From a virus, in the IMG/VR virus record IMGVR_UViG_3300018080_006612, positions 1 to 30,721 of that record: DNA of 30,721 nucleotides; one strand, written 5' to 3'. The position numbers and the translations under genes were made by a program. Of this stretch, positions 695-19,467 are shown piece by piece (position 1 is the stretch's first letter; each line of letters opens with the position of its first letter). The notes under the pieces were generated by a model. The model ran no database searches and was not told the origin of the DNA. It worked only from the letters and a program-made list of their open reading frames with translations.

Positions 695-1597
695 TTATTC
701 CACCTTCTTCGCCTTGTTCCCCTTGCGGGCTCGCCGCCGGCGGATGATGGCGCGCACGAGCATGAACAACCCAACCAGTGGCACCGCAATCGCGATCAGG
801 ACCGGGATGACGAGGACGACGATGACGATGGCCGCGTCGACCAGGAACTGCAGCACGCGGATAAGCGACTGGACCGCATTGCGCAGCGTGCCCTCCGGGT
901 GCCAGCCGCCGACCTGGATCGGCTGCGCCAGTTCGTCGGGGATGATATTGAGGCTCACCGTCGCCATAGCCGCCGACTGCTCCAGGTACTGGATCCGCCC
1001 CTTGACCTGCTCGATCTCGGCCTGCACCTGCCGCAGTTGCTCGTAGACGGCAAGCGCGGCCTCGGTATCCTCGGCCTCATCCAGGAACTCCAGCAGCTTG
1101 GCCTCGGTCGCCTCCAGGTGACGCAGGCTGGACTTGCGGTCGACGTACTCCTCGGTCACGTCCGTGCCGGTGACGTCCTCACCCCGTACCTCGGTCGCCA
1201 TATCGCGAATGCGGTCCAGCGCGACGTCGAGACTTTCGGCGGGGATACGGAGCCTGACCGTGGCCCGCTGCCCCTCCTGGAACTGCTCCACGCTCGACTC
1301 GACGACGTACCCACCCAGTTCGTCGACCAGGTCGTTGATCTCGTCAAGGGCCGCCTCGGTGTCCGGCACGACCAGACTGAGCCACGCGTCGCGGATGATG
1401 AGGCGCTCGACGGCGGCATATCTGTTGCCAGCGCCAGGTTCAGCGGGCGCCGCCTCCATCTCCGACTCGGCGACCGGGGCACTGGCCGGCTCTTCGTAGA
1501 GATCCATCGCCGGCTCAGGCGCCGCCGCCCGGCCACAGCCTGCCACAACGAGTGCCAGGGCAGATGCGATGATGAAATACATAATCTTCTTGCTCAT
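695..1597 (-). CDS. DUF4349-family membrane lipoprotein
   Basis: A 300-aa protein with a lipoprotein signal: MSKKI, a hydrophobic stretch and lipobox VAGC with Cys21. An acidic Pro/Ala-rich linker follows. From about residue 58 comes the DUF4349 domain (IIRDAWLSLVVPDTEAALDEI, GGYVVESS, VRLRIPAESLDVALDRI, DVTEEYVDRKSSLRHLEATEAKLLEFL). It includes a coiled coil and ends in a hydrophobic membrane segment at about 250-285 with a basic RRRRARKGNKAKK tail. The start at 1597 is preferred over the longer frame (1654) because AAGGGGAAGGGA immediately precedes it and the signal peptide begins there. The function of DUF4349 is unknown; the protein should sit on the outer face of the cytoplasmic membrane. 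It belongs to the host flank. Confidence 0.88.
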   Translation of the reverse strand: MSKKIMYFIIASALALVVAGCGRAAAPEPAMDLYEEPASAPVAESEMEAAPAEPGAGNRYAAVERLIIRDAWLSLVVPDTEAALDEINDLVDELGGYVVESSVEQFQEGQRATVRLRIPAESLDVALDRIRDMATEVRGEDVTGTDVTEEYVDRKSSLRHLEATEAKLLEFLDEAEDTEAALAVYEQLRQVQAEIEQVKGRIQYLEQSAAMATVSLNIIPDELAQPIQVGGWHPEGTLRNAVQSLIRVLQFLVDAAIVIVVLVIPVLIAIAVPLVGLFMLVRAIIRRRRARKGNKAKKVE

Positions 1598-1707
1598 TCC
1601 CTTCCCCTTTCTCCCGCCTTCTGTTATTTCTTCCTCCCCTCTACCAGGGGGCATCGCTCTTTAGACGTTGAGGGCAGGCGCAAAGTTCCCGCTAGAATCG
1701 CCCAGAG

Positions 1708-2436
1708 TCACCGCCCGATCTCCAGACGGTCGATGAGGCGGCGGGGGAGGTCCCGGGCGCGCATCCGCTCCTGGGTGATCTCCACCGAATAGGGGACGCG
1801 ACAAAACTCCCACGTCATGCCCTCTGTGTCGAGCAGCGCGTAGCTGGCCCACGGGTCGCCATCTCGGGGCTGTCCTACGCTGCCGGGGTTGATGATCATA
1901 CGACGCGTGCCAAGCTTCACGGCCCCGTTCAAAGGGGGGATCATCGCCTCGCAGCGTTGGCGCTTCTGGTTCAATTCGAAGATCAGGGGAATGTGCGTAT
2001 GCCCTACCAGGCAGATCTGGGAGGAAAAATGCGCGAAATTCGCGTAGGCCACGTTGGCGTCAAGAATGTACTCCCACACGGGTTCCCGGGGACTGGCATG
2101 GGCCATACAGAAGCCATCTTGCTCCAGGTGCGTGGGAAGTCCAACCAGGTAATCGCGCGAGCCTGGCGTCAGCTCGGACCGGGTCCATACAGTGGCAGCG
2201 CGGGCGTCGGTGTTGAAATTCCTGATGTCCAGCTTTCCCAACGCAGCCCAGTCGTGGTTGCCCGCCAGGCTGACGTGGGGAAACTCCTGAATTCGTTCAA
2301 TACACTCGTTGGGATTTGGACCGTACCCCACCAGATCGCCCAGGCACCAAATCTCGTCAAACCCCGGCGCGTCCGCCAGAACAGCCTGCAGGGCCACCAG
2401 GTTGGCGTGAACGTCGGATAAAATCAGATAACGCAA
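1708..2436 (-). CDS. Calcineurin-like metallophosphoesterase
   Basis: A 242-aa single-domain phosphoesterase with the full metal-binding set of the family: D8-x-H10 (SDVH), GD at 33-34, GNHD at 59-62, H113 and GHTH at 145-148. Such small cytoplasmic enzymes hydrolyse phosphodiesters or nucleotides such as diadenosine tetraphosphate; the substrate here cannot be told. The start is TTG at 2436, with GGAGTGG 8-9 bases upstream. The serine recombinase gene of the element ends only 31 bases upstream, so integration has probably separated this gene from its original promoter while leaving its ribosome binding site intact. Confidence 0.9.
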   Translation of the reverse strand: MRYLILSDVHANLVALQAVLADAPGFDEIWCLGDLVGYGPNPNECIERIQEFPHVSLAGNHDWAALGKLDIRNFNTDARAATVWTRSELTPGSRDYLVGLPTHLEQDGFCMAHASPREPVWEYILDANVAYANFAHFSSQICLVGHTHIPLIFELNQKRQRCEAMIPPLNGAVKLGTRRMIINPGSVGQPRDGDPWASYALLDTEGMTWEFCRVPYSVEITQERMRARDLPRRLIDRLEIGR

Positions 2437-2467: not shown

Positions 2468-4072
2468 TTATATACCGATTCCCCAGTTTTGCCAGTTTGT
2501 CGCCACGAAGACTGGCTCCAGTTCGATTGGGATGGGCGCCTCGGCGTCGGGGCGCTCGAATTTGTAGGTGACGTGGATCACTGGATAGGGTTCGTTTTCG
2601 TCGTCGAGATGGGTCTCGGCGACGATTTGCTTTACTAACATCTCGATGATGGCGCGTTTGTCTTCCCAAGCAATGTTTTCATCAAGATGCTGACGTAGTG
2701 TTGTCAATGCCTCAAGTACGCTGGCCATATCGCGTTCCCACAGGTCGGCGCGTTGTTGTTCTTCAATGAGGTTGGCCCGGTAGGTCTCCAAGGTGGCCAG
2801 GCTCCCCCGCGTTTCTTCTGCTTTCTCATCAAGCTGTTTGACCGGGATCATCCCGCGGCCATAAAGCGCGAGGTAGCGTTCCAGCTCCGCTTTGCGCTGG
2901 GTGATCCTGCGATCGACGTCGGCCAGGCGGGAGGCAATGGCCGCACCCGCGGGCTCGCGCTGCCGTACGAGTTCTGCAGCGACTAGGTGGGGCTGGCGGA
3001 TGAATTCCTCGATGTCGGCCCAGATGGCTTCCTCCAGCTCCGGCCCCGGGATCGTGATCCCTCCCTCGCATTTTTGGGCCTTGATGCGGACCCAGTCGTA
3101 GCGTGCGATGCAACGGTAGCTGTGGGCTCCTCCTTTGCGTCGGGGAGGACGACCACAGTAAGCAGCGCCACATTCGCAGCGGATCAGGCCGCGGAGTAGA
3201 TAGCGATGCTGCGGTGGCCGGGTGTAGCGGCGGTTGCGTACCAGTGTGGTCTGTGCGTCGTTCCAGGCATCCTCGTCGACAATTGCTGGCACGTCTATGG
3301 TGATGTCATCAGTGCTGGAGTGGTAGGTCCAGCAGCCGATGTAGATTTCTCCACGGATGATGTGGCGAATGGTCCCGGGGGTCCACGTGGGTGTGTGACG
3401 TGTGCCGTCGCGGCGGACGGTTGTCTTCCCTAGCCGGGCCTTGGGGCTGGGGATCCCCAGCGCGTTTAACCGGCGGGCGATGGCGCGGCCGCTCATCTTT
3501 TCGTCGGTGGCCCAGCGAAAGATCATTCGTACGACGCCGGCAGGTTCTTCCTCGACAACGAGGTAACCATCCTCGTCCCGTAGGTAGCCGTACGGGACGA
3601 GGCCTCCGATATACTTCCCGTCTCTGGCGGCTTTCTCTCGCCCTTCGCGCATTCGACGAGTGATTTTCTCGCGCTCGACCTGGGAGAAGACGCCACGAAG
3701 GACAACCTGGATGAAGGTGGCTTCGTCGCAGGAGGTCATCTCCAGGTTATCGCAGATGGAATAGACGGGAATGTCTAGCTGTTGGAACTCGTGGCGCAGG
3801 TTGAGGAGATCGCGTAGGTTACGGTTGAACCGGTCGAGGTCGTAGATTACTAGCACGTCGTACTGGTGATCCTGGGCGGCGCGCCGGCATCGGTTGAGAG
3901 CCGGGCGGTCGAGGTTGGCGCCACTTTCGCCGGGTTCGACGAAGGTCAGGTCGGGATCCAGGCTCCAGCCTCTGGTAGTTGCGTATGCGGCTGTGCGTTC
4001 GAGCTGATTCGGTATGCTAGTGTTGCGAATCTGCTTCTCGCTCGAGACGCGGACGTAGCGTGCTGCGTTCAT
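2468..4072 (-). CDS. Large serine recombinase (integrase)
   Basis: A 534-aa protein with an N-terminal resolvase catalytic domain (residues 1 to about 150: RYVRVSSEKQ with nucleophile Ser10, VIYDLDRFNRN, FSQVEREKITRRMREGREKAARDG). A recombinase domain follows (about 155-270, GLVPYGYLRDEDGYLVVEEEPAGVVRMIF). A zinc-ribbon region comes next (RCECGAAYCG ... YRCIARYDWVRIKAQKCEGG) and then a C-terminal coiled coil. The domain order and length are typical of phage and ICE serine integrases, which join attP and attB without high-energy cofactors. The start at 4072 follows a GGGGG ribosome binding site and a near-consensus promoter. The gene points outward at the left end of the element. It is the best candidate for the enzyme that integrated it. 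Confidence 0.95.
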   Translation of the reverse strand: MNAARYVRVSSEKQIRNTSIPNQLERTAAYATTRGWSLDPDLTFVEPGESGANLDRPALNRCRRAAQDHQYDVLVIYDLDRFNRNLRDLLNLRHEFQQLDIPVYSICDNLEMTSCDEATFIQVVLRGVFSQVEREKITRRMREGREKAARDGKYIGGLVPYGYLRDEDGYLVVEEEPAGVVRMIFRWATDEKMSGRAIARRLNALGIPSPKARLGKTTVRRDGTRHTPTWTPGTIRHIIRGEIYIGCWTYHSSTDDITIDVPAIVDEDAWNDAQTTLVRNRRYTRPPQHRYLLRGLIRCECGAAYCGRPPRRKGGAHSYRCIARYDWVRIKAQKCEGGITIPGPELEEAIWADIEEFIRQPHLVAAELVRQREPAGAAIASRLADVDRRITQRKAELERYLALYGRGMIPVKQLDEKAEETRGSLATLETYRANLIEEQQRADLWERDMASVLEALTTLRQHLDENIAWEDKRAIIEMLVKQIVAETHLDDENEPYPVIHVTYKFERPDAEAPIPIELEPVFVATNWQNWGIGI

Positions 4073-4519: not shown

Positions 4520-4732
4520 CTAACTGCACAAATTCTCCCACAGTTCGGTCAAGGCAGATTCAATGTCGAAGTCGTCAGCACGTGCAGAATCGAACAGAGT
4601 GCGTTCACCTCCTACAGTTTCTTCGCGCCAAGCTTCGACGATGACCCCTCCTATACCGTCTTCTCTGATTCGCAATTCGTAGCTTCCTCTTACGACTATG
4701 TCGTGAAGGTCCCAATGCAGTTTCTCATCCAT
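4520..4732 (-). CDS. Small acidic hypothetical protein at the end of the PRTRC operon
   Basis: A 70-aa protein (MDEKLHWDLHDIVVRGSYELRIREDG...) rich in acidic residues and beta strands. The ATG at 4732 overlaps the stop of the ThiF/E1 gene by 8 bases and has AAAGGAG 10 bases upstream; TTG at 4735 is a possible alternative. The overlap indicates translational coupling to the E1-like gene, so it may be an accessory part of the cassette. No domain is recognised. Confidence 0.68.
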   Translation of the reverse strand: MDEKLHWDLHDIVVRGSYELRIREDGIGGVIVEAWREETVGGERTLFDSARADDFDIESALTELWENLCS

Positions 4733-5534
4733 CAAGTTCTACTCCTTTGTCTCCGTTTGTAATCGGCAGCGAGCGGGCGCTGCCGGTGACCAGGTCGATG
4801 TAGGTGGCGTAGATGTCCAGGTCCCGGGCCAGGATCAGGCGGTAGACGTACTGTGCGGCGTAGGTGGCCACGGCCTGGTTGATCATCAGCGATTGGACGT
4901 CGGCCAGGGTCAGGTCCGCGCAGGAGGCCCCGGTTTCCTCCGTTTTCGGAGGATCTTGGAGCAGCTCCGGGTGCTGGATGGCGGGGAGGGGTAGGCCAGA
5001 GCAGAAGCCCAGGGGGTCGATCTCGGGGGCCGCCAGATCGCGGCGGTCACCGAGGAGGACCTGGCCAGCGTGCTCGTGGTTGCCACAATCCAGCCACCAG
5101 GTGCCGTATCCGAAGCCTGTCGCAATGATCTTATGGATGTCGCGGCGAGCGGGAACGTTGTCGACGCAACCAATCAGGAGCCGTAGCTCGTTGTGGCGTT
5201 CTGTCGGCAGAAAGTCGCGGTGAAGCGATTCAGTGAAGGCCTGAATATCCAGGCCAAAGGCGCGGTTAAAGCGATTCAGCAATGCCCAGGCTTTGTAATT
5301 GCCAACCTCAACAGGGGCGAAGTTCTGGCGGCCGATGTTGCGCGATTCTACTATGTCCGGATCGATGAACGTCAGGTGCACGGAGAGTCCGTGGCGATCG
5401 CGGGCGTGGTAGGCCAGGCGGGCAAGGTGTAGGGCCAGGAAGGAGCCCGTTCCCCCGCAGCCCACAAGGATGACCTCTATGCGTTTGGGCGAGCCGATCT
5501 CGATTCGGTAGCGTTTCTCGATCTCAATATTCAT
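4725..5534 (-). CDS. PRTRC system ThiF/E1-like adenylating protein
   Basis: A 269-aa ThiF/E1-superfamily protein. It has the nucleotide-binding loop VGCGGTGS (24-31), the acidic strand end FIDPD (57-60) and the ES-RN-x-x-RQNF motif (64-72) carrying the ATP-contacting Asn66 and Arg69. It also has Lys81 and CVDN (123-126) with the conserved Asp125. Cys150 (LDCGN) is a candidate thioester cysteine; no CxxC zinc pairs are seen. E1-like enzymes adenylate the C-terminal glycine of a ubiquitin-like protein. The gene order ParB-C-(F)-B-A-ThiF is that of PRTRC cassettes on proteobacterial plasmids and islands. It overlaps gene A by 11 bases and has GGAG upstream. The substrate is inferred to be protein C (7831-8019). 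Confidence 0.88.
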   Translation of the reverse strand: MNIEIEKRYRIEIGSPKRIEVILVGCGGTGSFLALHLARLAYHARDRHGLSVHLTFIDPDIVESRNIGRQNFAPVEVGNYKAWALLNRFNRAFGLDIQAFTESLHRDFLPTERHNELRLLIGCVDNVPARRDIHKIIATGFGYGTWWLDCGNHEHAGQVLLGDRRDLAAPEIDPLGFCSGLPLPAIQHPELLQDPPKTEETGASCADLTLADVQSLMINQAVATYAAQYVYRLILARDLDIYATYIDLVTGSARSLPITNGDKGVELDG

Positions 5535-6138
5535 CTTTGTGACTCCATTCCTGGAACGGGCCTAGATCGGTGAATAGAGTGGTCGTTGGGACACGCTGGA
5601 AGTCTCCGTACATCCCCAGCCGGAGGATGATCTCGGGACGGGTGAAAATGCGGCCGATGACAGCGTAGAAGCGAAAGCCCTGCTCGTCGCGGTTGTCGGT
5701 CTCGGAATAGAACGCCCGCATCTGTTGATGAGAGTGCAGGTCGAGGATGATACTGAGATCGTCTCCACCGGCGTACGCGACCCTGGCGGCACCGGCGTCC
5801 TGCTGTGGCCGAAAGACGTGCACCTGGTTGTGGTCAATAGTGATGTGGTACATCGCTTCGCATGGTGCGTCCCAGGATCTTGATCTGGCATCCTGCAGAA
5901 TCCGGTGGAGAATCTGGCCAGGGATGCGGCCGGTGAGAGGCCGGACGTACGGGGTCAGTGGCTGGAGGCCAGCGACGTGGGTAGTGGCCAGTTTTATCAG
6001 CGCGTCGACGTGACGATTGCGGGCCTGTTTAAACAGACCGTTGCCGGCGAGCACGTAGGCAAAGACCTTGTCGTCCGGGACCGCAGGCTGGCGTCCGTCT
6101 TGGTGAATCAGATAAGCGGCGGGTTCAGGTAACATCAT
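5524..6138 (-). CDS. PRTRC system protein A, JAB/JAMM metallopeptidase
   Basis: A 204-aa protein with a complete JAMM zinc-protease signature: Glu94 (PCEAMYHI), then His135-Ser-His137, seven residues, Ser145, two residues and Asp148 (HSHQQMRAFYSETD). This is the motif of Rpn11/JAB deubiquitinase-like proteins. In PRTRC systems protein A is the JAB member. Its likely role is to trim or remove the ubiquitin-like modifier. The N-terminal 90 residues are a family-specific region. ATG codons at 6138 and 6135 are both possible, with GGAAGGA just upstream. It overlaps gene B by 14 bases and the E1 gene by 11, so the three are translationally coupled. The catalytic residues are all present, so activity is plausible. 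Confidence 0.9.
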   Translation of the reverse strand: MMLPEPAAYLIHQDGRQPAVPDDKVFAYVLAGNGLFKQARNRHVDALIKLATTHVAGLQPLTPYVRPLTGRIPGQILHRILQDARSRSWDAPCEAMYHITIDHNQVHVFRPQQDAGAARVAYAGGDDLSIILDLHSHQQMRAFYSETDNRDEQGFRFYAVIGRIFTRPEIILRLGMYGDFQRVPTTTLFTDLGPFQEWSHKDEY

Positions 6139-6838
6139 TGTCCTTCCATAGGTCTTCCAGGACCAGGTGTGTCTTGACTAGGTCGTCAAGCGGGAATTCA
6201 TCCTGGTCATCGATGGCCTCCCACAGGCGAAACACATTCTCCTGGTACTCGGCCGATCTGCCCTGCATCAGGTCCTGGTTGAACTCGCTGGCGAAGAACA
6301 TGTTGGCGGCCTTATGGATCGTCTGCGCGCTGCAGGGCGGAAAATTCACATTACCAGGGCAGATTTTGCCATTGTCGAATACGTTGGGAAGTGGAGCGCG
6401 GAACAGACCTTCACGATTGCCCGGGCGATGCTTGACGGCGAAAACACAGTATCTGCTGCCTTTGCCGGTGAAGACAAAGCCAGGCAGAGGTACGTCGAAC
6501 TCTGTCTTTTGCTCAGGCTCCAGCCAGGCAACGAGTGTGCGGCGTCCGGGTGGGATGTAGATGCCGAAGAGAGCCGGGCCGTCGCGGCGGGCGTAGAAGA
6601 GGCAATCACGCGGGAGCACGCCGGTGGTGAGAGGCATATTGGCGAAGGCCGCGGCCAGATCGTCGGGGGCGACCTCATAGCAGGTGATTGGTCTGTTATC
6701 ATCGTAGCGAGTGAGAACGATCGATTCCTCAAATAGATCGAGACGCAGTCTGAGTTGCTGGCGGTCGCCGGCGACATCACCAAGCCCGGCCAGGGCGAGC
6801 CCGGTGACGTTGAGTTGAATATCAGTCTGAGTTATCAT
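6125..6838 (-). CDS. PRTRC system protein B with E2-like active-site signature
   Basis: A 237-aa protein placed between F and A as in PRTRC operons. From the ATG at 6838 it carries PNVFDNGKIC at residues 151-160. This matches the spacing of the E2 ubiquitin-conjugating motif (PNxxxNGxIC), with Cys160 at the position of the catalytic cysteine. The preceding strands (FGIYIPPGRRTLVAWLEP, PLPGFVFTGKGSRYCVFAVK) fit the E2 beta meander. The inferred role is to receive the modifier from the E1-like protein and pass it to a target. ATG 6838 is preferred over TTG 6859 because GAGG lies 6 bases upstream; it overlaps F by 17 bases. Assignment to PRTRC-B is by motif and position, and the E2 fold needs structural modelling. 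Confidence 0.82.
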   Translation of the reverse strand: MITQTDIQLNVTGLALAGLGDVAGDRQQLRLRLDLFEESIVLTRYDDNRPITCYEVAPDDLAAAFANMPLTTGVLPRDCLFYARRDGPALFGIYIPPGRRTLVAWLEPEQKTEFDVPLPGFVFTGKGSRYCVFAVKHRPGNREGLFRAPLPNVFDNGKICPGNVNFPPCSAQTIHKAANMFFASEFNQDLMQGRSAEYQENVFRLWEAIDDQDEFPLDDLVKTHLVLEDLWKDNDVT

Positions 6839-7634
6839 CAGATTCCTCACATATATCAAGCAAGACGGATAACACGCGGCTCATAGCGCTGGGAAACTGC
6901 TCAAACCAACCGGTGTAGATGTGTAGCTGGTGGATCTGGTCGCGCACCTGGTCGAATTCCTTGGCCATTAGCAGAACGTTTTCCACGGTCCAGAAGTAGA
7001 ATTCGTAGATGTACTCGTTTGCCCAATCGCCGCCGGGGACGTCGATGAATTCATTATCCCCATCTTTCATCACACAATGATAGAGCGTGGCCAGGCCGCG
7101 GAGCTCGTTGGGTAGTTCTTGTAGCCGATCAAGTGCGTCATCTGGCCAGCGGATCTGAGGAACGTGATCGTAGTTTCGATCGCTCCACCATTCCTCCAGG
7201 TTGCCAGGCTCGATTTTGCCGGCGGCGCCAAGAACGGCGACCATCGGCTGAGCATATTCGGGCAAATAGACGATAAATTCACATTCCCAGGCGATCCCGT
7301 TGCCATCGATGGGGATTGAGGCCTCGAATGGATTTTCGCCGCAGTTGACGTACATATCCATCGTCGCGAGGTGGACGGGAAACAGCTCATCGTTCACGCG
7401 ACCAACGAACTGGATTTCGAGATCCCACGTCGCATAGTAGTCCACGGGCGGGTCTTCGTCGAAGACGCCGCGGTACAGATCTATGATGTAATATCGGTGT
7501 GCCAGATCGTTCAGCCACCAGGCGATATGGCTGTAGAGAGGGAGCTGGAAGCGTTTTAGGCTCCAGGTGATCTTGCGGGCTGTTAGAAGCCGCAGGGCAG
7601 GTTGTTGGATGGCAATGGTCGTAGATTCTGGCAT
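6822..7634 (-). CDS. Putative PRTRC system protein F
   Basis: A 270-aa acidic, Trp/Tyr-rich protein (HIAWWLNDLAHRYYIIDLYRG, NLEEWWSDRNYDHVP, YEFYFWTVENVLL). It lies between gene C and gene B, the position held by PRTRC protein F in known cassettes. No catalytic motif is visible. The C-terminal part looks helical (VENVLLMAKEFDQVRDQIHQLHIYTGWFEQFP). The start ATG at 7634 has GGTGA upstream and overlaps the previous small gene by 52 bases. That it is a real coding gene is well supported by length and by operon overlaps on both sides; the name F rests on position only. Confidence 0.66.
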   Translation of the reverse strand: MPESTTIAIQQPALRLLTARKITWSLKRFQLPLYSHIAWWLNDLAHRYYIIDLYRGVFDEDPPVDYYATWDLEIQFVGRVNDELFPVHLATMDMYVNCGENPFEASIPIDGNGIAWECEFIVYLPEYAQPMVAVLGAAGKIEPGNLEEWWSDRNYDHVPQIRWPDDALDRLQELPNELRGLATLYHCVMKDGDNEFIDVPGGDWANEYIYEFYFWTVENVLLMAKEFDQVRDQIHQLHIYTGWFEQFPSAMSRVLSVLLDICEESDDNSD

Positions 7635-7828
7635 CGTTTCACCATAGCTTCTGTCTTGTGGACATGGTCATCAAGTTGCTCGACGGCTGATTCGACCTGT
7701 GGTTGGATGTCGACGATCTCCTTCACGTTTGTAGGTGGCTCGCGTTGCAGACGGATGAAGAGTTCAATCGCCTCCAACCGCAGGGTTGGCAGATAGAGGA
7801 GCCTATCAATCACGTCGGCGGGCGTCAT
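7583..7828 (-). CDS. Small helical protein within the PRTRC operon
   Basis: An 81-aa protein starting MTPADVIDRLLYLPTLRLEAIELFIRLQRE, predicted mostly alpha-helical. AAGGGG lies 5 bases upstream of the ATG, and only two bases separate it from the stop of gene C. Its end overlaps the F gene. By position it could correspond to the extra small component seen in some PRTRC loci (protein E), but it is much shorter than usual E proteins and no similarity is recognised. Confidence 0.65.
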   Translation of the reverse strand: MTPADVIDRLLYLPTLRLEAIELFIRLQREPPTNVKEIVDIQPQVESAVEQLDDHVHKTEAMVKRCQNLRPLPSNNLPCGF

Positions 7829-7830
7829 CG

Positions 7831-8019
7831 TTACCCCTTGGTGCCGGCGCGCTTGACGAAGGTCACCTCGACGGTGTCGTCGTCGAGCAGCTTTTCCTGG
7901 ATGGTGGCCTGGGCGAGCTCGGGGAAGTAGGTCGTCAGGTGGCGCCGAACGTCCTCGTTGGTGAATTCCTCGCCGGGGTCCTCCCAGCTCTGATCCTGGT
8001 ATCTAAAGATGCGTGGCAT
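7831..8019 (-). CDS. PRTRC system protein C, candidate ubiquitin-like modifier
   Basis: A 62-aa protein whose pattern matches PRTRC protein C: RIFRY near the start, DP (14-15), VRRHLTTYFPELAQA in the middle and an exact GTKG C-terminus. A short beta-beta-alpha-beta-beta layout and a free C-terminal glycine would suit a beta-grasp modifier adenylated by the ThiF/E1-like protein three genes on. The modifier role is an inference; the family match is strong. The ribosome binding site is GAGGAGG, 9 bases before the ATG at 8019, inside the end of the ParB gene. The 14-bp palindrome at 8040-8053 lies just upstream. No residue follows the glycine, so no maturation cut would be needed. Confidence 0.88.
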   Translation of the reverse strand: MPRIFRYQDQSWEDPGEEFTNEDVRRHLTTYFPELAQATIQEKLLDDDTVEVTFVKRAGTKG

Positions 8020-8023
8020 TGAT

Positions 8024-9493
8024 CTATACCTCCTCGGGTATTTCCTGGGAAATGTCGATAGTGAAATAGGAACTGCAAACGTCGGTGATCAGGGACGACA
8101 ATCCCTCGTAGACGCCAGTTTTGAACGTGGCAGGGGGTTGGCCTTCCTCGGCGATGGCCACCATCACGCGGCGCTGGAGCAGATTGAGATCCTCGTCGGG
8201 GAGGATGCGGACGGTGACCAGGACCGCGGGAGGCGGCGGGGGCTCCGGAGGCGTGGCAGGCTCTGGCGAATTGGTCGAGCTCATATCGAGCGTACGCGGA
8301 GCATTCGATGTACCGGTGGCGACGGGTGCGCTGGCGATCTCCTCGGATTCGGAGGCCTCGGGCTCCGGTTCGGGAAGGCCTGCGGCGTGCCAGCATTCGG
8401 GGCAGATCTGGAGCCAAGTGTAGCTACCTCCGGGCCTATACCACGTGGTGGGTGAGGAATCGAAGTCGTTGGTCCAGCGGCGGCAGGCCATGCATTGAGC
8501 GTAGCGGATTTCCACGTGGTGCCAGCCGGTATGTTCGTCGTACATCTCCTTGGCCTTGGCCGGTCCGGTGACCTGGACGCGATAGGCTTTTTCTTTCTTC
8601 TTGAAGCACGATAGGTTGCTGCAGCGGCGATTACGGCTGACGCGGTATTCGCAGTCCTCACAGGCTCCGACGATACCGTCGCCCGGCGCGTCCTCGGCGC
8701 GGTCAGGGATCCAGTCGAGCGGCCAGGTGGCTTCACTGAGCTCGTTGGTCTTCTGCTCGATTAGGCGCTTGACAGCGTCCTCGACCTCGGCGACGGAGCG
8801 AACGTCAGCGGCATCGTCGGGACGGTGATCATTGTGGCCCAGGAGGTCCATCAATGCGCCCTCGCCCACCCGGAGATCAAGGAGAGGCATCAGGGCGCGT
8901 CCGTGTCGCTCGGTGATGGTCTTATTACGCAAGAGCGAGCGGATACCATCAGGGAGACGTAACAGGCGGAGCTTGTTGGAGACGGCGGCCTGGGTGAGGC
9001 CCCAGCGTTCACCGACCTGAGACTGAGTCCACTTGAACTCTAGCATCGCCGTCTGGATGGCCGCGGCCTCTTCGATGGGAGAGATATCCTCTCGATCGGC
9101 GTTCTCCTGCCAGGCGACGTCGGCCATCGCTTGGTCATCGATGAGCTCAATGTCCACGGGTAGCGTGGCGTATTCGTCATCTGTCTTGGCCAGTTGCTGA
9201 AACGCAGCGAAACGGCGGTGGCCAGCGGCGAGCTGGACGCGGGCCTCGGGCTCGTCGCCCAGGCAGGGCAGGACCCCACCGTATTCCTCGTAATTGAGGA
9301 TCTGTCCATGGAACGTGACGGTTTTTCCACCGATGATGATCCGGCCCAGCGGCGGGTGGATCAGACCGGACGTCTCCGGCCGAACGTCGGCGAGCTGTTG
9401 GATCGACGCAACCAGGTCGGTGACGGCGGACGTGACGGTCCGGGTCTGAAACGGGTTCTTGTCGATCCGGTCGAGAGGGATTCTAGCGAGCAT
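8024..9493 (-). CDS. PRTRC system ParB-family protein with two Cys4 clusters
   Basis: A 489-aa ParB/Spo0J-type protein. The N-terminal domain includes the CTP/DNA box GHRR (91-94) and ENADREDISPIEEA (130-143). A helix-turn-helix follows (about 153-178, WTQSQVGERWGLTQAAVSNKLRLL). Two four-cysteine sets are then visible: C278/C281/C291/C296 and C334/C337/C364/C367, probably zinc-binding. An acidic Pro-rich linker leads to a C-terminal domain (about 422-489). ParB proteins bind centromere sites, spread as CTP clamps and partner with an NTPase; no ParA Walker ATPase is in the window. It starts at ATG 9493 behind GGAAGGAG and heads the PRTRC operon. An unusual insertion of about 45 residues precedes GHRR. 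Confidence 0.88.
   Translation of the reverse strand: MLARIPLDRIDKNPFQTRTVTSAVTDLVASIQQLADVRPETSGLIHPPLGRIIIGGKTVTFHGQILNYEEYGGVLPCLGDEPEARVQLAAGHRRFAAFQQLAKTDDEYATLPVDIELIDDQAMADVAWQENADREDISPIEEAAAIQTAMLEFKWTQSQVGERWGLTQAAVSNKLRLLRLPDGIRSLLRNKTITERHGRALMPLLDLRVGEGALMDLLGHNDHRPDDAADVRSVAEVEDAVKRLIEQKTNELSEATWPLDWIPDRAEDAPGDGIVGACEDCEYRVSRNRRCSNLSCFKKKEKAYRVQVTGPAKAKEMYDEHTGWHHVEIRYAQCMACRRWTNDFDSSPTTWYRPGGSYTWLQICPECWHAAGLPEPEPEASESEEIASAPVATGTSNAPRTLDMSSTNSPEPATPPEPPPPPAVLVTVRILPDEDLNLLQRRVMVAIAEEGQPPATFKTGVYEGLSSLITDVCSSYFTIDISQEIPEEV
8040..8053. repeat. 14-bp palindrome ATTTCCTGGGAAAT, copy 1
   Basis: ATTTCC-TG-GGAAAT has perfect 6-base inverted arms. This copy lies in the last codons of the ParB gene, 21 bases upstream of the start of PRTRC gene C. 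Identical copies are at 20910-20923 and 27901-27914. It is probably the operator of a dimeric regulator; which one is unknown. Confidence 0.7.
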
Positions 9494-10082
9494 GTGACTC
9501 TCCTTCCAGTGCGGATAAGGGTTCTTGTCGGTCCTGTACGTCCTGGAGCAAGACGGGGATGTCGGCCGCGGTGATGGCGAAGCGGGTGCACTGACGCGCT
9601 AGAAGCGCACGCAGGTTATCGACGGTAACCGGCCGGTCCCGGCGCTCCAGGCGACTGATGAGCAACGTGATTTCGTAGTGGCGCCGACACATCGGCGGGT
9701 TGATGAAGTTAGGCGTGAAGACAGGTTCGCTACAGTAGGTGCATTGTTTGTCGGTGGTTTCCAGCATACTGATCACTCCTTTCCATCCGATCTCGCTGAC
9801 GAGGCCGCGCAGGTCCAGCCCGGCCAGGTCGGCCCAGCACCAGAGGCAGATACCATTGTAGATTGGATTGTGATCCCAGCCGTGAAAGCTGCAGCAGACA
9901 CATTGTTCTGTCTCTGGCGGTGAGGCGTCGTCTTTTTTGTTCCACTCACGGCAATAGTTGGCGGCGGTATCTCTTTGACAGCCGACCATCTGTGCAAGTT
10001 GGCCTGGCGTGAAACGACCGGTGCCGACGTCATTCAAGATTCTGAAAATTCGTTGTCTGCAGCTATATTGCAGGATTGTCAT
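9483..10082 (-). CDS. HTH and zinc-ribbon protein upstream of ParB
   Basis: A 199-aa cysteine-rich protein. Residues 24-48 (TPGQLAQMVGCQRDTAANYCREW) look like a helix-turn-helix. Cysteine groups follow at C61/C63/C64, C79/C82 (CLWC), C114/C117 (CTYC) and C132, suggesting two zinc ribbons. The start at ATG 10082 is chosen because CGGAG lies 7 bases upstream and because the longer frame (to 10148) reads through the iteron repeats. It overlaps the ParB gene by 11 bases. A DNA-binding regulator or replication factor that binds the adjacent iterons (10119-10210) is a reasonable guess; no family is recognised. Confidence 0.75.
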   Translation of the reverse strand: MTILQYSCRQRIFRILNDVGTGRFTPGQLAQMVGCQRDTAANYCREWNKKDDASPPETEQCVCCSFHGWDHNPIYNGICLWCWADLAGLDLRGLVSEIGWKGVISMLETTDKQCTYCSEPVFTPNFINPPMCRRHYEITLLISRLERRDRPVTVDNLRALLARQCTRFAITAADIPVLLQDVQDRQEPLSALEGESHAR

Positions 10083-10118
10083 TGTCGCTCCGCATTGTAT
10101 TTTGAATACTTCTATACA

Positions 10119-10210
10119 ACTATGACACTCTGACACTATGACAAGCACTCATGGCAGTGTCATAGCTGGAACCATCATGACCCGATGTCATAGTGTCAGA
10201 GTGTCATAGT
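10119..10210. repeat. Iteron region with 25-bp inverted repeat (operator, origin or centromere)
   Basis: Three tandem 8-mers CTATGACA/CTCTGACA/CTATGACA (10120-10143) are mirrored exactly by TGTCATAG/TGTCAGAG/TGTCATAG (10186-10209). Together they form a perfect 25-bp inverted repeat with a 42-base spacer. A further TGTCATAG lies in the spacer (10158-10165), and an isolated CTATGACA is at 10366-10373. The surrounding 10083-10374 region is AT-rich and has no convincing gene. It lies between a RepA-like helicase gene and the zinc-ribbon/ParB genes. The site could be an autoregulatory operator, an iteron origin or a ParB centromere. Confidence 0.82.
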
Positions 10211-10374: not shown

Positions 10375-11658
10375 TCAACTTTCTTGCCCGGCCCATTTCC
10401 AGCGATTTTCGGGGCTGCGCGTATCCTCACCTTCGGTATCTTCAATGCATTTTGCCAACTTCTGCCGGACACGGTAGATCATCCGGCGGTTGAATCCCTC
10501 CTCGCGGCCGAGTTCAATGATTTCGGCGGGTTTCATCGGCTCGTCTGCGTTGCAAAGAAGCTCCTCCAACCATTCTGCACAGTAGTCGCCTTTGGTCGGC
10601 TCTCGCCATGGCTCCGGGGCCTCGCCGTAGCGGAGCTGGGCGATGTCGGGGATCTCGGGATGAGGATCGAACCAAACACCGACAGGATCCGGGTAGCGAG
10701 TGAGATTGGATTTCATCACCCACAGGCGGCGTGGGCCGTTTTCGTCCAGCTCCTGGGTAGTGGGGATCCACTGCAGGCCCAGGACGTTGCGGGCCATCGC
10801 GGGGATGTGCGATGAGCCGCGGATACTGTCGATGTTCATCGGGATGAATGACGTCTGGGGCCCGCTGCGTTTGCGCAGGTGGTGGACGATGAGCATCCCC
10901 ATCTCGTTGTCTTTGGCCAGCTTGTTCAGAAACGCGAGGAGCTGCTGGACGTCCTCTTTGTTGTTCTCACCGCGCAGCGTAGCGGATCCATAGGAATCGA
11001 TGATGGTCAGGACTGGTTGGATCGTGTAGATCATATCCCAGAGGCGTTCGCGGTCGATCATGTCGTCCAGGTTGATGACGAGGCGATCATCGTCCGGTAG
11101 CATCAGATACATCCTGGCCAGCTCGCGGGAGCTCCAGGGCTGGACGCGGGCCTTGAAGATGGAGGGCGTGTTCTCCGCGTCGACGTAGATAACACGGTGC
11201 CGGCCGTCGGGGACCTGGGAATCATCTGGAAAGCGATCGTTGGCAATGACCCGGTGGGCCAGGTCCAGGGCAAGGTAGGATTTGCCTGTGCCAGGGACGG
11301 CGGCTAGCAGGCTGACCAGGCCCAGCGGTATCCAGTCCGGCCAGAGCCATTCCAGCGTGGGGAGGTTGTCGACGATGTCGCCGGCGCTGGGGTAGGTGAG
11401 GGGCTCATCGATGGCGTCGAGGATGAGGCGCACTCGGGTGGCGTCTTCCTCGCTGGTGCTGCAGAACTGCTGGACGAAGTCGATGCGTAGTTCGGAGACA
11501 TCGACGTTTTCGGGGTCTTCATCGATCCACGTAGTGATCCACGTGTAGTAGGTATCCCACGGGTCTCCCAGGTCCTCGGGGTCGACGCGGGCTGTACCAG
11601 GTTTGTTGGCAATTGTATCGGCTATGATCTGGATCCGTCTGGCGGTGGAGAGGATCAT
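10375..11658 (-). CDS. RepA-like AAA ATPase / hexameric helicase
   Basis: A 427-aa RecA-fold ATPase of the RepA/AAA_25 type. It has Walker A AVPGTGKSY (120-128), IYVDAEN (157-163), Walker B VLTIIDS (216-222), the HH motif (259-260, LIVHHLRKRSG) and an RGSSHIPA arginine-finger-like segment (280-287). A helical N-terminal domain of about 100 residues precedes it, and a small winged-helix-like C-terminal region follows (about 375-420, KPAEIIELGREEGFNRRMIYRVRQKL). Such proteins are replicative helicases of plasmids and phages. AAGGAG lies 8 bases before the ATG. The iteron region lies directly downstream, a common layout for replication initiation modules. Confidence 0.85.
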   Translation of the reverse strand: MILSTARRIQIIADTIANKPGTARVDPEDLGDPWDTYYTWITTWIDEDPENVDVSELRIDFVQQFCSTSEEDATRVRLILDAIDEPLTYPSAGDIVDNLPTLEWLWPDWIPLGLVSLLAAVPGTGKSYLALDLAHRVIANDRFPDDSQVPDGRHRVIYVDAENTPSIFKARVQPWSSRELARMYLMLPDDDRLVINLDDMIDRERLWDMIYTIQPVLTIIDSYGSATLRGENNKEDVQQLLAFLNKLAKDNEMGMLIVHHLRKRSGPQTSFIPMNIDSIRGSSHIPAMARNVLGLQWIPTTQELDENGPRRLWVMKSNLTRYPDPVGVWFDPHPEIPDIAQLRYGEAPEPWREPTKGDYCAEWLEELLCNADEPMKPAEIIELGREEGFNRRMIYRVRQKLAKCIEDTEGEDTRSPENRWKWAGQES

Positions 11659-12518: not shown

Positions 12519-12950
12519 CTATGTCTGCCTGGCGTCGTCGACGTAGATTGGCCCGCTCCACTCTTCTGCTTCCGTGGTCTTGGCCTCACCCTCGATGAGC
12601 TGGGCAGGTTTGGCCTGGCCCGACAAGTATGCCGCCCGGAGCATGTCCGGATACATCATTGGAAAGTTGGACGGTTGAACGACGTGGACCTTCGGCGTCT
12701 CGGCGACGCGGCCGTCAATGGTGTGCTTCTCCCGGATGATCTCGCGTTCGTGCGGGCGCTCGGGTTTGCGCGCATGCAGCGGGAGTGCTGTCGCGGCGAT
12801 GATCAGCGCGATCACGATGCCCACAACGAGAATCAACACGACAGTGTTGATCATCTGACGATCGAGCCGTAGGACGATCGCTACAACGGCAGCGACAGCG
12901 ACCACGAGTGTGAGTCCTACCAGCAGGCCTGATAATTTCTTGGTATCCAT
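12519..12950 (-). CDS. Two-pass membrane protein coupled to the FtsK-like gene
   Basis: A 143-aa protein with two hydrophobic helices (about 7-27 and 34-56) separated by LRLDRQMINT. A charged cytoplasmic-type tail follows (ARKPERPHEREIIREKHTIDGR ... MMYPDMLRAAYLSGQAKPAQLIEGEAKTTEAEEWSGPIYVDD). Its ATG shares one base with the stop of the FtsK-type gene (TAATG), and GGAGG lies 9 bases upstream, so the two are translationally coupled. It could anchor the soluble FtsK-like ATPase at the membrane; this is inferred from coupling and topology only. Confidence 0.75.
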   Translation of the reverse strand: MDTKKLSGLLVGLTLVVAVAAVVAIVLRLDRQMINTVVLILVVGIVIALIIAATALPLHARKPERPHEREIIREKHTIDGRVAETPKVHVVQPSNFPMMYPDMLRAAYLSGQAKPAQLIEGEAKTTEAEEWSGPIYVDDARQT

Positions 12951-14164
12951 TAGTCGGTTCCTCCAAACTGTTCCACCAGGCGCTGGGCGCGGTGGAAATT
13001 GATGCTAAATTGGCGGCCCAGGACCGCCGCCGTCGTACCGGCTTCAACAGCTTCCTGGACAGCGTCCAGATCGAGATCCTTGCGCTGCCAGCCCCCGCGG
13101 GGATCGACGTCGCCGACCGGCTCTCCATCGGGATCGAGAGCGCTCAGATCGAGGTGCCGGATGTTGGTCTCTTGGGGGAGACAGTCCAGCAGATCCATAG
13201 GGACGAGCGGGGCCTGAAAGCGGCTGATGGTATCGGTGATGTTCAGGAAATCGCCCCGCCCGAGGAGCTCGTTAGCGTGGGAACGTCCACGACCGGCGGC
13301 GCCGTACTCGAGCGTGCGTGAAGAGACACGGCCCAGGAGTCGGCAGGGAAAGTTGGCGATGGCCTCGCCCAGGGCCTTGGCGCCGGGCTGCTGGGTAGTG
13401 CAAAACAGGTGGATGCCCTCGCCGGCGCCCATCTCGGCGATGGAGTTGACGAGCTTGGTCACCTGGCGGTTGCTGCGGACCAGGTTGCGGATCTCGTCGA
13501 TGACGACGAGGATTCGCGGCCGGCGGATCCCGGCGATGGCCCGTTGTTTCATCGTGGAGTCGACCCACATCAAGGTCCGCACAATCTCTTCGACGTTGTG
13601 CTCGGGTGGATGGAGCAGATGCCGGACGTGGGCGAAGGGCTGGAGCTCGGAGCCCTTGGGGTCCAGGAGCAGGAGCTGCAGCTCCCGGGCCGGGTTCTGG
13701 AGCAACAGGCGGAAGAGCATCCAGCGCAGCAGGTTGGTTTTGCCCGAGCGGGTTGTCCCGCCGAGGAGCACGTGGCACATGCGCTCATCGGCGAGATCGT
13801 ACCAGACGACCTGGCCGGTGGTGCCGACGCCCAGCGGGACGCGCCAGGTGGATTCATTCTTGATGCGTAGCAGGCGCGTGGCCGTCAGGGTCTTGCGTTC
13901 CTTGGGCGGCTTTGGGATCTCGACCAGCAGGCGGCCTGGATCGCGGGCGATGCGACAGGATTCGGCGTTGGCCGCCAGGGCCAGCGCGCCGGCGAGGCGT
14001 TCGACCGCCTCCGGCTTGACGCCCAACGCCAAGTTGATCGCGTAGGTCTGGATCTGGGGACCGTCGAAGACAGGTGAGACGATAGCTTCTACGTTGCGCG
14101 TGGTCAGCGCGGCCTGCAGGAGCCCGGCGGTGAATTGGATGTTTCGATCAGTGCCAGTGTACAT
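12950..14164 (-). CDS. FtsK/SpoIIIE-type DNA translocase ATPase
   Basis: A 404-aa protein with the FtsK motor fold: Walker A LLGGTTRSGKT at about 133-143, LLLLDPKGSEL (165-175), Walker B ILVVIDEI (218-225) and a sensor-like LFCTTQQPGA. About 120 residues precede the motor and have no membrane helices, and a C-terminal HTH-like segment ends the protein (VEAGTTAAVLGRQFSINFHRAQRLVEQFGG, gamma-like). FtsK-type motors pump double-stranded DNA during segregation or conjugation. The start at ATG 14164 has GGAAG 5 bases upstream; GTG 14170 is less well placed. It may work with the membrane protein encoded immediately downstream. Conjugation genes other than this were not seen. Confidence 0.88.
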   Translation of the reverse strand: MYTGTDRNIQFTAGLLQAALTTRNVEAIVSPVFDGPQIQTYAINLALGVKPEAVERLAGALALAANAESCRIARDPGRLLVEIPKPPKERKTLTATRLLRIKNESTWRVPLGVGTTGQVVWYDLADERMCHVLLGGTTRSGKTNLLRWMLFRLLLQNPARELQLLLLDPKGSELQPFAHVRHLLHPPEHNVEEIVRTLMWVDSTMKQRAIAGIRRPRILVVIDEIRNLVRSNRQVTKLVNSIAEMGAGEGIHLFCTTQQPGAKALGEAIANFPCRLLGRVSSRTLEYGAAGRGRSHANELLGRGDFLNITDTISRFQAPLVPMDLLDCLPQETNIRHLDLSALDPDGEPVGDVDPRGGWQRKDLDLDAVQEAVEAGTTAAVLGRQFSINFHRAQRLVEQFGGTD

Positions 14165-14166
14165 AT

Positions 14167-14820
14167 TCACTTCCGATAATGTGGTTTACGTGACCTAGCT
14201 TTACGTTCGAGCAGATACTGAGCCAGGTGGATGGCCGAGCGCTCGGCGGGCGGCCAGCAGGGAATGCCGATCTGGGCGAAGAACTCCTCCTCGGTGGGAG
14301 TGGGTACGGGCTTGCCGTGGCGCCAGAGGTAGCCATCCTTGAGAGCAAGATCGATCGGGAGGGTTCCACCATCCCAGGACTTGGAGGCCCACATCTTGTT
14401 GAAATCCCCGGGGCCAGTGCGCAGGGCCAGGATATAGCCCCAATTGTCGCGGTCGGCTCGGAAGAGCTCGATCACGACGCGTTGTTCGTCGGTGCCCGGC
14501 CAGTCGCGCATGCTGGTGATCGGCCGCTCCGTGTAACGGACCATCCGCTTGTAGCGCGGGCCGTTGCGTTTGAGTTGATCGTCGAAGTACCAGAAGCGGC
14601 GCCGGATCAGGTCGTCGATGAAGGCCTCCGTGGCAGGCCTCTTATTCACCGTGAACAGATCAACGCGGGTATTGGTCATGCGTGGGATGTAGACGATCTC
14701 AATGTCCTTGGGATTGGGCTTACCGCGGCGGACGCTGCCGGCGATGATGATGCGGTCGCAGGCTGGCGTCAGTGCCTCGACGACTTCCATTCCGATTCGG
14801 CGGGCTTGCTCCAGGTTCAT
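14167..14820 (-). CDS. PolX-like nucleotidyltransferase
   Basis: A 217-aa DNA polymerase beta/X-family palm and thumb. It has the signature GSVRRGKPNPKDIEIV (28-43) with GS, RRG and the metal-binding Asp39-x-Glu41. A third acidic residue is Glu118 (VVIELF), and the thumb-type segment RADRDNWGYILALRTGPGDFNKMW is visible at 121-144. The 8-kDa lyase and PHP domains of cellular PolX are absent. Relatives occur in phages and mobile elements. The role could be gap filling or end processing of the element's DNA. AGGAG lies 6 bases before the ATG. The stop overlaps the start region of the FtsK-like gene. Confidence 0.86.
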   Translation of the reverse strand: MNLEQARRIGMEVVEALTPACDRIIIAGSVRRGKPNPKDIEIVYIPRMTNTRVDLFTVNKRPATEAFIDDLIRRRFWYFDDQLKRNGPRYKRMVRYTERPITSMRDWPGTDEQRVVIELFRADRDNWGYILALRTGPGDFNKMWASKSWDGGTLPIDLALKDGYLWRHGKPVPTPTEEEFFAQIGIPCWPPAERSAIHLAQYLLERKARSRKPHYRK

Positions 14821-15162: not shown

Positions 15163-15208
15163 TTTGCGCAATGATTGCACAAGGCGCGCTGCACAATCAT
15201 TGCGCAAA
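15163..15208. repeat. Inverted pair of ~20-bp sites, candidate parC-like centromere or operator
   Basis: TTTGCGCAATGATTG (15163-15177) and its exact reverse complement (15194-15208) face each other across 16 bases. Each arm extends to a longer site made of two TTGYGCAA-like 8-mers separated by TGA. The stop codon of the ParM-like gene (15197-15199) lies inside the right arm, and the ParR-like gene starts 25 bases to the left. The same site recurs twice at 20991-21047. A partial copy, GTTGTGCAT, follows at 15214-15222. Confidence 0.82.
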
Positions 15209-16216
15209 GATGCGTTGTGCATAGCGGTAGTAGCCTTTCGCGTTGGCGAAGGCTGCGTCCTCGACGATGCGAGCGTGGCGGAAGCGTTCGCAGATTGCCG
15301 GCCCGATCAGATCGGCCCCTCCGCCAGATACCAGGATCTGGTCGAGGCGGGCTCCTCCATTCCATCGTGTTGTGGCCTCGGCGATGATCTGTTCGGCCAG
15401 AGGCGCCAGGGCCTCGTTCACGAGATCGCTCACGTCGTAGGACTCGCCGTAGTAGCGTATGGTTGGCTGCGACTTGTCGTCGTCGTCCTTTTCATCGCTC
15501 TTGGCGGCGACGAGAGCGGTGATCTCGTGATCGGCGAGCTCCAGGCCGGGGAACCGATCATTCACCGCGTCCCGAATCAGCGTCAGAGCGCGCCAGCATC
15601 CGATGTCGATAGAACCGGTTTCGGATGGTATCTCGGCCAGATCCTCGACGGACAGGAAGCCGGCAGTTTTTCCGCCGACGTCAATCACGCCGGTCCGTCC
15701 GGTGGCCAGGTCATTGTCGACGATGCGCCCGCGGTTGTCCAGAACCTGGCTCAACAGCGTGCCAAATGGCTGCGGGATGCAGACGATCCGGGTGACCTTG
15801 AACTTTTGCCAGTTGCGACCCTCGCGTTGAACGCGAAACTCGCCGGATAACCGCTCGATGACCTCATCCTGATCTTGCGCGAAGTAGGTCACTGGAAGAC
15901 CAGTGACGACCTGGATTTCGGCATAGCTGGCGGTGGTGAGCTCGGTAAGAGCTGCCAGGTAATAGCGGAGGTATGCTTGACTTTTGATCCAGTCCCGGTC
16001 CTCCTGGCGTGGGGTGAAGCGGCTCAGGCGCAGGGCGGCGGATCCGACGATCCACTGGCCATCGCCAGGGATTGTGAGAATGACGGCGTCGGGATCGCGA
16101 CCGTTGAGCGAGAAGTGCGCTCGCTCCAGATTGCCGCAGATGGACGGCATCCGCTGTGCGATGTCCGCGGCGATAAGCTTCCAGTGAGAATATCCGAGAT
16201 CAATTCCAGCTTTCAT
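15197..16216 (-). CDS. ParM/StbA-like actin-type ATPase (PRTRC protein D-like)
   Basis: A 339-aa protein of the actin/Hsp70 fold: phosphate-1 loop GIDLGYSHWK (4-13), a connect segment (GLPVTYFAQDQDEVIERL), phosphate-2 GVIDVGGKTAGF and an adenosine motif ILVSGGGADLIGP. The end is ANAKGYYRYAQ. ParM-type filaments push plasmid copies apart via ParR bound to parC, and PRTRC loci carry a related protein D. The start at ATG 16216 has GGGAG 7 bases upstream; the ATG at 16222 is too close to that site. It is followed by repeated DNA sites and the ParR-like gene. Partition is the most likely role. Confidence 0.88.
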   Translation of the reverse strand: MKAGIDLGYSHWKLIAADIAQRMPSICGNLERAHFSLNGRDPDAVILTIPGDGQWIVGSAALRLSRFTPRQEDRDWIKSQAYLRYYLAALTELTTASYAEIQVVTGLPVTYFAQDQDEVIERLSGEFRVQREGRNWQKFKVTRIVCIPQPFGTLLSQVLDNRGRIVDNDLATGRTGVIDVGGKTAGFLSVEDLAEIPSETGSIDIGCWRALTLIRDAVNDRFPGLELADHEITALVAAKSDEKDDDDKSQPTIRYYGESYDVSDLVNEALAPLAEQIIAEATTRWNGGARLDQILVSGGGADLIGPAICERFRHARIVEDAAFANAKGYYRYAQRIFAQ

Positions 16217-16310
16217 TTGCATTCTCCCGTCTGTGGGGTATAATGAGGTTGGACGTTGCGATGCCAAGTTGCGTCCATCCCCTGGCCGTGGTGCTCTGCA
16301 TCACGGCCAT
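16200..16310 (-). CDS. Possible 36-aa protein overlapping the ParM-like start
   Basis: Frame MAVMQSTTARGWTQLGIATSNL..., with AAGGAG 11 bases before the ATG at 16310. It ends inside the ParM-like gene (17-base overlap). The start codon lies in the base of a strong hairpin (16283-16309). There is no similarity and no clear coding signal beyond the ribosome binding site, so it may be only a leader of the ParM-like gene. Confidence 0.25.
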   Translation of the reverse strand: MAVMQSTTARGWTQLGIATSNLIIPHRRENANESWN

Positions 16311-18010: not shown

Positions 18011-18020
18011 TGGAATCTCC

Positions 18021-19256: not shown

Positions 19257-19260
19257 ATCA

Positions 19261-19467
19261 TCACCCAGCCGTATTGGCCGTGGTCGAAAGCGGGACCGAA
19301 CGGAAACCGGCCTGCGCGGCTTCGAGAGCGCGCAGGCGGACGAATTCGTCGACGATGAAACGAAGCGCTGCTGAGTCACCACAGTTACCGTTGTCTTTGC
19401 CCACCTGGGCAATTGTGGCGATGTGTTGAGGTTCGAGCGAATAGGATTTGGTGATTTTTGGGGCCAT
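19261..19467 (-). CDS. Ribbon-helix-helix-like small DNA-binding protein
   Basis: A 68-aa protein: a basic N-terminal strand (PKITKSYSLEPQHIATIAQV) and a helix (GDSAALRFIVDEFVRLRALEAA). This is the arrangement of Arc/CopG-type RHH repressors. It is the first gene of the leftward block, 9 bases after AAGGAGG and just below a consensus promoter and a palindrome with GGAAGC half-sites. Autoregulation of the maintenance operon is the natural inference. Only 4 bases separate it from the tyrosine recombinase gene. Confidence 0.74.
   Translation of the reverse strand: MAPKITKSYSLEPQHIATIAQVGKDNGNCGDSAALRFIVDEFVRLRALEAAQAGFRSVPLSTTANTAG

Follow-up and report, generated by a model that had tools for sequence, protein, structure and literature searches.

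A probable ubiquitin-like conjugation cassette of the PRTRC type in an integrated Chloroflexota prophage with plasmid-type partition genes

What does a set of genes resembling a ubiquitin conjugation pathway do beside a partition gene in a tailed-phage genome? The question is raised by the IMG/VR virus record IMGVR_UViG_3300018080_006612, of which positions 1 to 30,721 (30,721 nucleotides, referred to here as the window) were analysed. A cassette at 4725–9493 on the minus strand encodes a ParB-family protein and the PRTRC-type proteins C (ubiquitin-like), B (E2-like), A (JAMM metalloprotease), and ThiF (E1-like). A first-pass annotation, made from the sequence alone, had described these genes and their motifs and had assigned the set to a tailed phage of a probable Chloroflexota host. 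Every gene and motif that it named is present between these coordinates, and host DNA in the left flank of the window bears out the Chloroflexota host. The proposal developed below is that the cassette is a PRTRC or type 6d ubiquitin-like conjugation system, carried by an integrated prophage of a Chloroflexota host that also has plasmid-type partition genes, and that it works by the steps described. This is considered fairly probable.

From ParB downward, all on the minus strand, the order is ParB (8024–9493), C (7831–8019, 62 amino acids ending in GTKG), an 81-amino-acid protein (7583–7828), a 270-amino-acid protein in the position of PRTRC F by comparison with the gene order of pMOL28 (6822–7634, the F-position protein), B (6125–6859), A (5524–6138), and ThiF (4725–5534). 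Neighbouring genes overlap or lie 2–5 nucleotides apart, an arrangement that reads as a single operon, and the minus strand showed no terminator-like site within the cassette. ParB had been described as fused to the set; it is adjacent, with a gap of 5 nucleotides to C, and is a separate gene. The genes for the 81-amino-acid protein and the F-position protein were absent from the first-pass annotation. A gene for a ParM-like protein lies further along the window (15197–16267).

The profile matches of the cassette have E-values of 1e-7 to 1e-50, which are beyond chance. A matches Prok-JAB (PF14464) at 30.3 bits, B matches Prok-E2_D (PF14460) at 91.2 bits, and C matches Prok_Ub (PF14454) at 43.3 bits, all above the Pfam cut-off of 25. 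ParB, which has a Cys-rich C-terminal half, matches PF17762 at 77.3 bits and TIGR00180 at 80.8 bits. Against the curated NCBI profiles for PRTRC, ThiF is the sole member above its cut-off (TIGR03736, 171.6 bits against 144.75). A (TIGR03735, 59 bits against 101.8), B (78.4 against 131.45), and C (39.1 against 45.95) are significant and fall below theirs, as do ParB (49 against 278.6) and the PRTRC D-like protein (89.5 against 214.8). The earlier PRTRC assignment thus stands by curated score for ThiF and falls short for A, B, C, and ParB, while E and F have no detectable counterparts. No E gene lies in the 5 nucleotides between ParB and C. The C-terminal half of ParB was considered as a fused E, and no relation was detected by profile. 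The F-position protein was likewise rejected as a canonical PRTRC F (hhalign score 13.4, with shuffles scoring up to 14.4). The order ParB-(E)-C-F-B-A-ThiF is kept, except that E is missing and the 81-amino-acid gene is added. Judged by its genes and their order, the cassette is a divergent variant of PRTRC, the "type 6d" operon of Iyer and co-workers.

The catalytic residues are conserved. ThiF carries the VGCGGTGS and RNIGRQ motifs, and G25, G27, G28, G30, D58, R69, Q70, K81, D125, and C205 are invariant across 13 relatives. A has the JAMM residues E94 and H135-S-H137-x7-S145-x2-D148, also invariant across relatives. B contains the motif P158-N159-VFD-N-G-K-I-C167; P156, N159, and C167 do not vary among 45 sequences. 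N159 and C167 are 8 residues apart, the same spacing as between the HPN asparagine and the catalytic cysteine of classical E2 enzymes (N77 and C85 of UBE2D). At the end of C, Gly62 is invariant and K61 nearly so (37 sequences).

The AlphaFold model of C has a predicted local distance difference test (pLDDT) score of 90 and shows a beta-grasp domain with a free C-terminal GTKG, in agreement with the fold that had been predicted for it. Structurally it comes closest to protein G, MoaD, ubiquitin, FAT10, and SUMO (Z about 5 for 62 amino acids). The model of B (pLDDT 85) is confident from residue 80 on. Over residues 80–228 its top VIA match is UBE2S (109 residues, Z of 4.0, which is weak by the scale of the tool), and another E2 stands third. 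Foldseek matched the B model to PRTRC-B-like phage proteins among viral models and returned no E2 in its 50 best matches from the PDB. The low Z value and the missing E2 both count against an E2 fold. Sequence searches of the PDB with the B or C profiles gave no meaningful match. B is therefore classed as E2-like by Prok-E2_D and the HPN-type motif, and weakly by fold; the E2 prediction of the first-pass annotation stands to that extent.

The resemblance of C to MoaD is also compatible with a second reading, in which C would carry sulfur after activation by ThiF, in the style of ThiS/ThiF or MoaD/MoeB, with no conjugation to proteins. The ThiF and MoeB families match ThiF at 1e-10 to 1e-3. A sulfur carrier role is nonetheless very improbable in view of the co-encoded JAMM protease, the E2-like protein whose catalytic Cys is invariant, the lack of biosynthetic genes nearby, and the end of C, which is KG and not GG.

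A comparison of related loci (designated by L numbers) connects the end of C with the presence of A. In loci without A, C stops exactly at the glycine of a KG or LG end in 32 of 32. There the genes for B and ThiF usually share 4 nucleotides, so A is truly absent. In loci with A, residues follow the glycine in 76 of 88, either as a tail of 1 to 113 residues or as tandem C units. Four C units stand in a row in Bacillus phage KLEB27-3 and three in Vibrio phage D69, and two Chloroflexota loci (L167 and L176) have two units and a tail. In the giant phages KLEB27-3 and D69 the tandem ubiquitin-like repeats occur with JAMM and ThiF (L006:4461–6711 and upstream; L007). One locus, L010 (Deinococcus proteolyticus pDEIPR02), has B and ThiF duplicated in one cassette with no JAMM.

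The association between JAMM and the tail has a Fisher p of 1.5e-19, calculated over loci that are related by descent. On the ThiF tree A changes about five times, at least two of them on well-supported branches, and the rule therefore rests on few independent contrasts. In the supported contrasts the tail moved as predicted 1.6 times and in the opposite direction 0.0 times, which is consistent with the rule and not significant; the phylogenetic sign test is underpowered and cannot reach 0.05. These points temper the association.

In the window, L025, and L026, A is present and C has no tail. In all three, the 81-amino-acid gene begins right after the C stop codon. This family (the window, L021, L022, L023, L025, and L026) aligns end to end with the fused tails of L004, L029–L038, and L045 (hhalign probability 95.9, score 50.9; the best of 60 column shuffles scored 15.1). 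The 81-amino-acid protein also directly matches the fused tail of the Chloroflexota locus L169 (phmmer 3e-7; blastp 4e-10 in a six-sequence set) and, by blastp, those of L167 and L176. The boundary between C and the tail falls at the glycine in every compared case. The element thus appears to encode as two genes, by split or by fusion, what its relatives make as one precursor, and this two-gene form with its boundary at the glycine marks the expected JAMM site. The association of JAMM with the tail, together with the separate 81-amino-acid gene, suggests that A most likely matures a pro-C in the relatives, and that C of the window would be mature from synthesis. The fused form of the relatives recalls the ubiquitin-ribosomal-protein fusions.

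The best reading of these features, drawn from motifs, models, and analogy, is E1–E2 conjugation of C with maturation and deconjugation by JAMM. ThiF would adenylate Gly62 of C with ATP and then bind C as a thioester, with Cys205 as the probable site. C would pass to Cys167 of B, the E2, and from there be joined to a lysine of the target, perhaps chosen by the F-position protein. A is predicted to cut after the glycine; in most relatives the precursor has a tail or tandem units, and this cut would free C from it. Because the window encodes the tail in a gene of its own, A should mainly deconjugate there.

The F-position protein is the fastest-evolving member of the cassette. Identity to L025 and L026 is 82% for C, 61% for ThiF, 51% for A, 49% for B, 48% for ParB (L026), 38% for the 81-amino-acid protein, and 33% for the F-position protein. 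Such fast evolution would be expected of a part that recognizes the target.

Genes for replication, partition, and conjugation are the usual neighbours of the cassette. In 20 of 95 viral contigs a ParB gene stands no more than 2 kb upstream of C, and the canonical plasmids also have ParB there; many phage cassettes are without it. About 25 related loci have a sliding clamp. The DnaN-type clamp gene is present in 20 loci, on the strand of the cassette in all 20 and upstream of it in 17, 13 of these within 3 kb. Among the 16 Chloroflexota genome loci fetched, four have a clamp within 10 kb, where about 0.1 would be expected from one to two clamps per 5-Mb genome, an expectation qualified by the fact that mobile elements bring their own clamps. 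Six Chloroflexota loci (L166, L168, L171, L173, L177, and L178) lie near genes for a type IV secretion system coupling protein, RepB primase, DUF6094 methyltransferase-helicase giants, PAPS-reductase, and DUF499, and are probably conjugative elements.

A second, JAMM-less class (L047–L062) occurs in Firmicutes-type phages with the order clamp or RusA, a ubiquitin-like protein ending in KG, ThiF, X, and E2 (for example, L057:8509–11085 and L062:7081–8419). The ubiquitin-like protein of this class matches no Pfam family. In L056, L059, L061, and L062 a clamp-family gene stands directly before it (in L062, phrog_947 at 2e-18 with a 2-bp gap).

Replication and partition neighbours of this kind suggest the clamp or ParB as the target, in a modification like that of PCNA, and the best guess is that the cassette modifies the replication and partition proteins of its own element. 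In its full form, the proposal is that C is attached to DNA-handling proteins of the plasmid or phage (the clamp where one is encoded, otherwise ParB), that this controls replication and segregation, and that JAMM reverses it, as a counterpart of PCNA ubiquitylation and SUMOylation. In that detail it is offered tentatively and is itself unlikely. Several observations weigh against it: a clamp gene is missing from the window, the cassettes of Mu-like phages lack both a clamp and a directly upstream ParB, and one cassette in a Chloroflexota genome (L167:14305–19074) adjoins Cas10 and Csx3 of a type III CRISPR system.

These same observations, with the cassettes near Cas10/Csx3 or DUF499, are the reason that anti-phage defence stays a strong rival. 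Here C would be attached to a protein of an incoming phage, as in Bil, or, in the manner of CBASS Cap2, would prime a defence enzyme, and the result would be defence or superinfection exclusion. Among systems of known function, the closest that combine E1, E2, a ubiquitin-like protein, and JAMM are directed against phages (PMC10097602; for Bil, the review PMC11354881). The patchy distribution of the cassettes, their place on mobile elements, and the fast evolution of the F-position protein fit such a role, as does the resemblance of ThiF to the CBASS-type E1–E2 proteins of PADLOC, whose models it matches up to 1e-10. No PADLOC model matches A, B, or C, however, the usual neighbours are those listed above, and the cassette of the window lies within a ParB operon and is not free-standing. 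On balance a defensive role is somewhat unlikely, though to be taken seriously.

The setting itself is not confined to this record. The first-pass annotation gave PRTRC as known from plasmids and islands of Proteobacteria. It is not limited to these, being found also in other phages and on cyanobacterial, Deinococcus, and Bacteroidota plasmids. By tblastn, ThiF relatives were found in 366 plasmids and 8 phage records. Scans of viral_contigs with alignments of ThiF subsets gave 42 and 150 relatives; a scan with B as a single protein gave no match. C, B, and ThiF were all found in 95 fetched viral contigs, and A as well in 73. Prok-E2_D is present in 35 of 396 genomes of the class of the host. 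These counts are lower bounds, because short peptide patterns are what such scans detect. With the 95 contigs and the GenBank phage BgVeeders33, the setting can no longer be called rare. PRTRC-type cassettes are common in temperate phages, and a phage setting is not new.

The element of the window is an integrated prophage, and its host is a member of the Chloroflexota. Positions 1 to about 2.4 kb are host chromosome, with genes for a DUF4349 protein and a phosphoesterase (695–2436, minus strand) that are syntenic in a Thermoflexia metagenome-assembled genome (MAG). The phosphoesterase shares 71–76% amino acid identity with those of L016–L018 (Thermoflexia/Anaerolineae MAGs), where DUF4349 stands beside it in the same order. 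Host synteny ends between 2435 and 2493; DNA similarity to L018 extends to about 2493 and reaches the final codons of a large serine integrase (2468–4072, minus strand; phrog_95, 1e-98), whose 3' end lies at the junction. This run of host synteny into the integrase end identifies the record as a fragment of an integrated prophage. The right end lies outside the record. At the junction (2436–2500), the 3' end of the integrase falls just upstream of a -10-like TATAAT of the phosphoesterase gene, whose start codon is now TTG.

A gene for a Cys-rich protein with a possible N-terminal helix-turn-helix (weak matches; 9483–10148, minus strand) heads the same run of overlapping genes as the cassette and overlaps ParB by 11 nucleotides. 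Further along the minus strand are an AAA_25 or DnaB-like helicase of the replication module (10375–11658; PF13481, 94.8 bits; phrog_239, 2e-15), an FtsK/SpoIIIE-like protein (12950–14170; of the phrog "moron" class and also resembling PADLOC mad8 at 6e-18), and the ParM/PRTRC_D-like partition ATPase of the actin family (15197–16267; TIGR03739, phrog_691 at 4e-51). A Cas4/RecE-type nuclease gene lies at 17411–18109, and a tyrosine recombinase (18021–19412, minus strand) gives the element two unlike recombinases. The plus strand carries the terminase large subunit (25365–26996; phrog_2, 2e-26; 45% identity to a Salinibacter phage), the portal protein (28116–29483; PF04860, 235 bits), and a Mu F-like head protein. 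Terminase and portal had been named in the first-pass annotation and are borne out by these profiles. The lysis genes that it also named come down to one M23-type peptidase. An HslV-family, proteasome-like peptidase gene (27365–27895; phrog_1040, 2e-23) lies between terminase and portal. No co-occurrence with the cassette, as a partner of the ubiquitin-like protein, was seen in the fetched flanks of related loci.

A chimeric assembly of plasmid and phage was considered and rejected, as the same linkage is found on the separate contigs L023 and L021. In L023, terminase, portal, and Mu F come after ParB-C-F-B-A-ThiF, and L026 has FtsK, helicase, ParB, and the cassette together. The L023 cassette immediately precedes terminase and portal and shares their strand. 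This position agrees with a further explanation, in which the cassette would serve the lytic growth of the phage, in assembly or host takeover, by acting on its virion proteins or on a protein of the host. The cassette of the isolated tailed phage BgVeeders33 and the tandem versions of the giant phages point the same way. The same cassette is common, however, on conjugative and other plasmids without virion genes, and in the window the structural genes are on the other strand, while the cassette shares its strand with ParB and the integrase. A lytic role is rather improbable.

For the conjugation reading, the comparison of loci places the expected cleavage site behind GxKG and supplies a naturally pre-cut version in the window prophage, an invariant E2 cysteine, and tandem or tailed precursors in the isolated phages KLEB27-3, D69, and BgVeeders33. 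The candidate targets are ParB, the sliding clamp, and a partner of the tail protein. Should the clamp or ParB prove to be the target, bacterial mobile elements would have a ubiquitin-like means of controlling replication proteins. A literature search that did not extend to preprints and subscription papers turned up no mention of the JAMM/tail rule, the natural split, or the clamp neighbourhood, and this comparative finding is the new part.

Among known systems, the closest is PRTRC itself (TIGR03734–03739, 03741, and 03742), as in pMOL28 of Cupriavidus metallidurans, with which the window shares the gene order, the JAMM, E2, ubiquitin-like, and E1 families, and the plasmid-type partition genes. 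The window differs from pMOL28 in its missing E, its non-homologous F-position protein, the extra 81-amino-acid protein, the phage setting, and scores of A, B, C, and ParB below the curated cut-offs. The type 6d operon of Iyer, Burroughs, and Aravind (2006) likewise combines a stand-alone Gly-ended ubiquitin-like protein with helical, E2-like, JAB, and E1-like proteins; the JAB was predicted to process the ubiquitin-like protein, the operon was described as mobile, and the only phage link given is to lambda-type tail genes (PMC1779556).

Burkholderia phage BgVeeders33 (OK665841) has the same type of cassette, with E, C, F, B, A, and ThiF in one tailed phage; its C and E were detected by profile. 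Unlike the window, it has canonical E and F, no ParB upstream, and a C with a fused tail of 62 amino acids. Bil (BilABCD) and type II CBASS (Cap2/Cap3) differ more widely, with separate profile families, no ParB, an E1–E2 fusion in Cap2, and an established function. What they share with the window is an E1, an E2, a JAMM protease, and a Gly-ended substrate whose glycine the protease exposes or cuts after: BilC exposes the glycine of BilA (PMC11354881), and Cap3 cuts after cGAS (PMC10097602).

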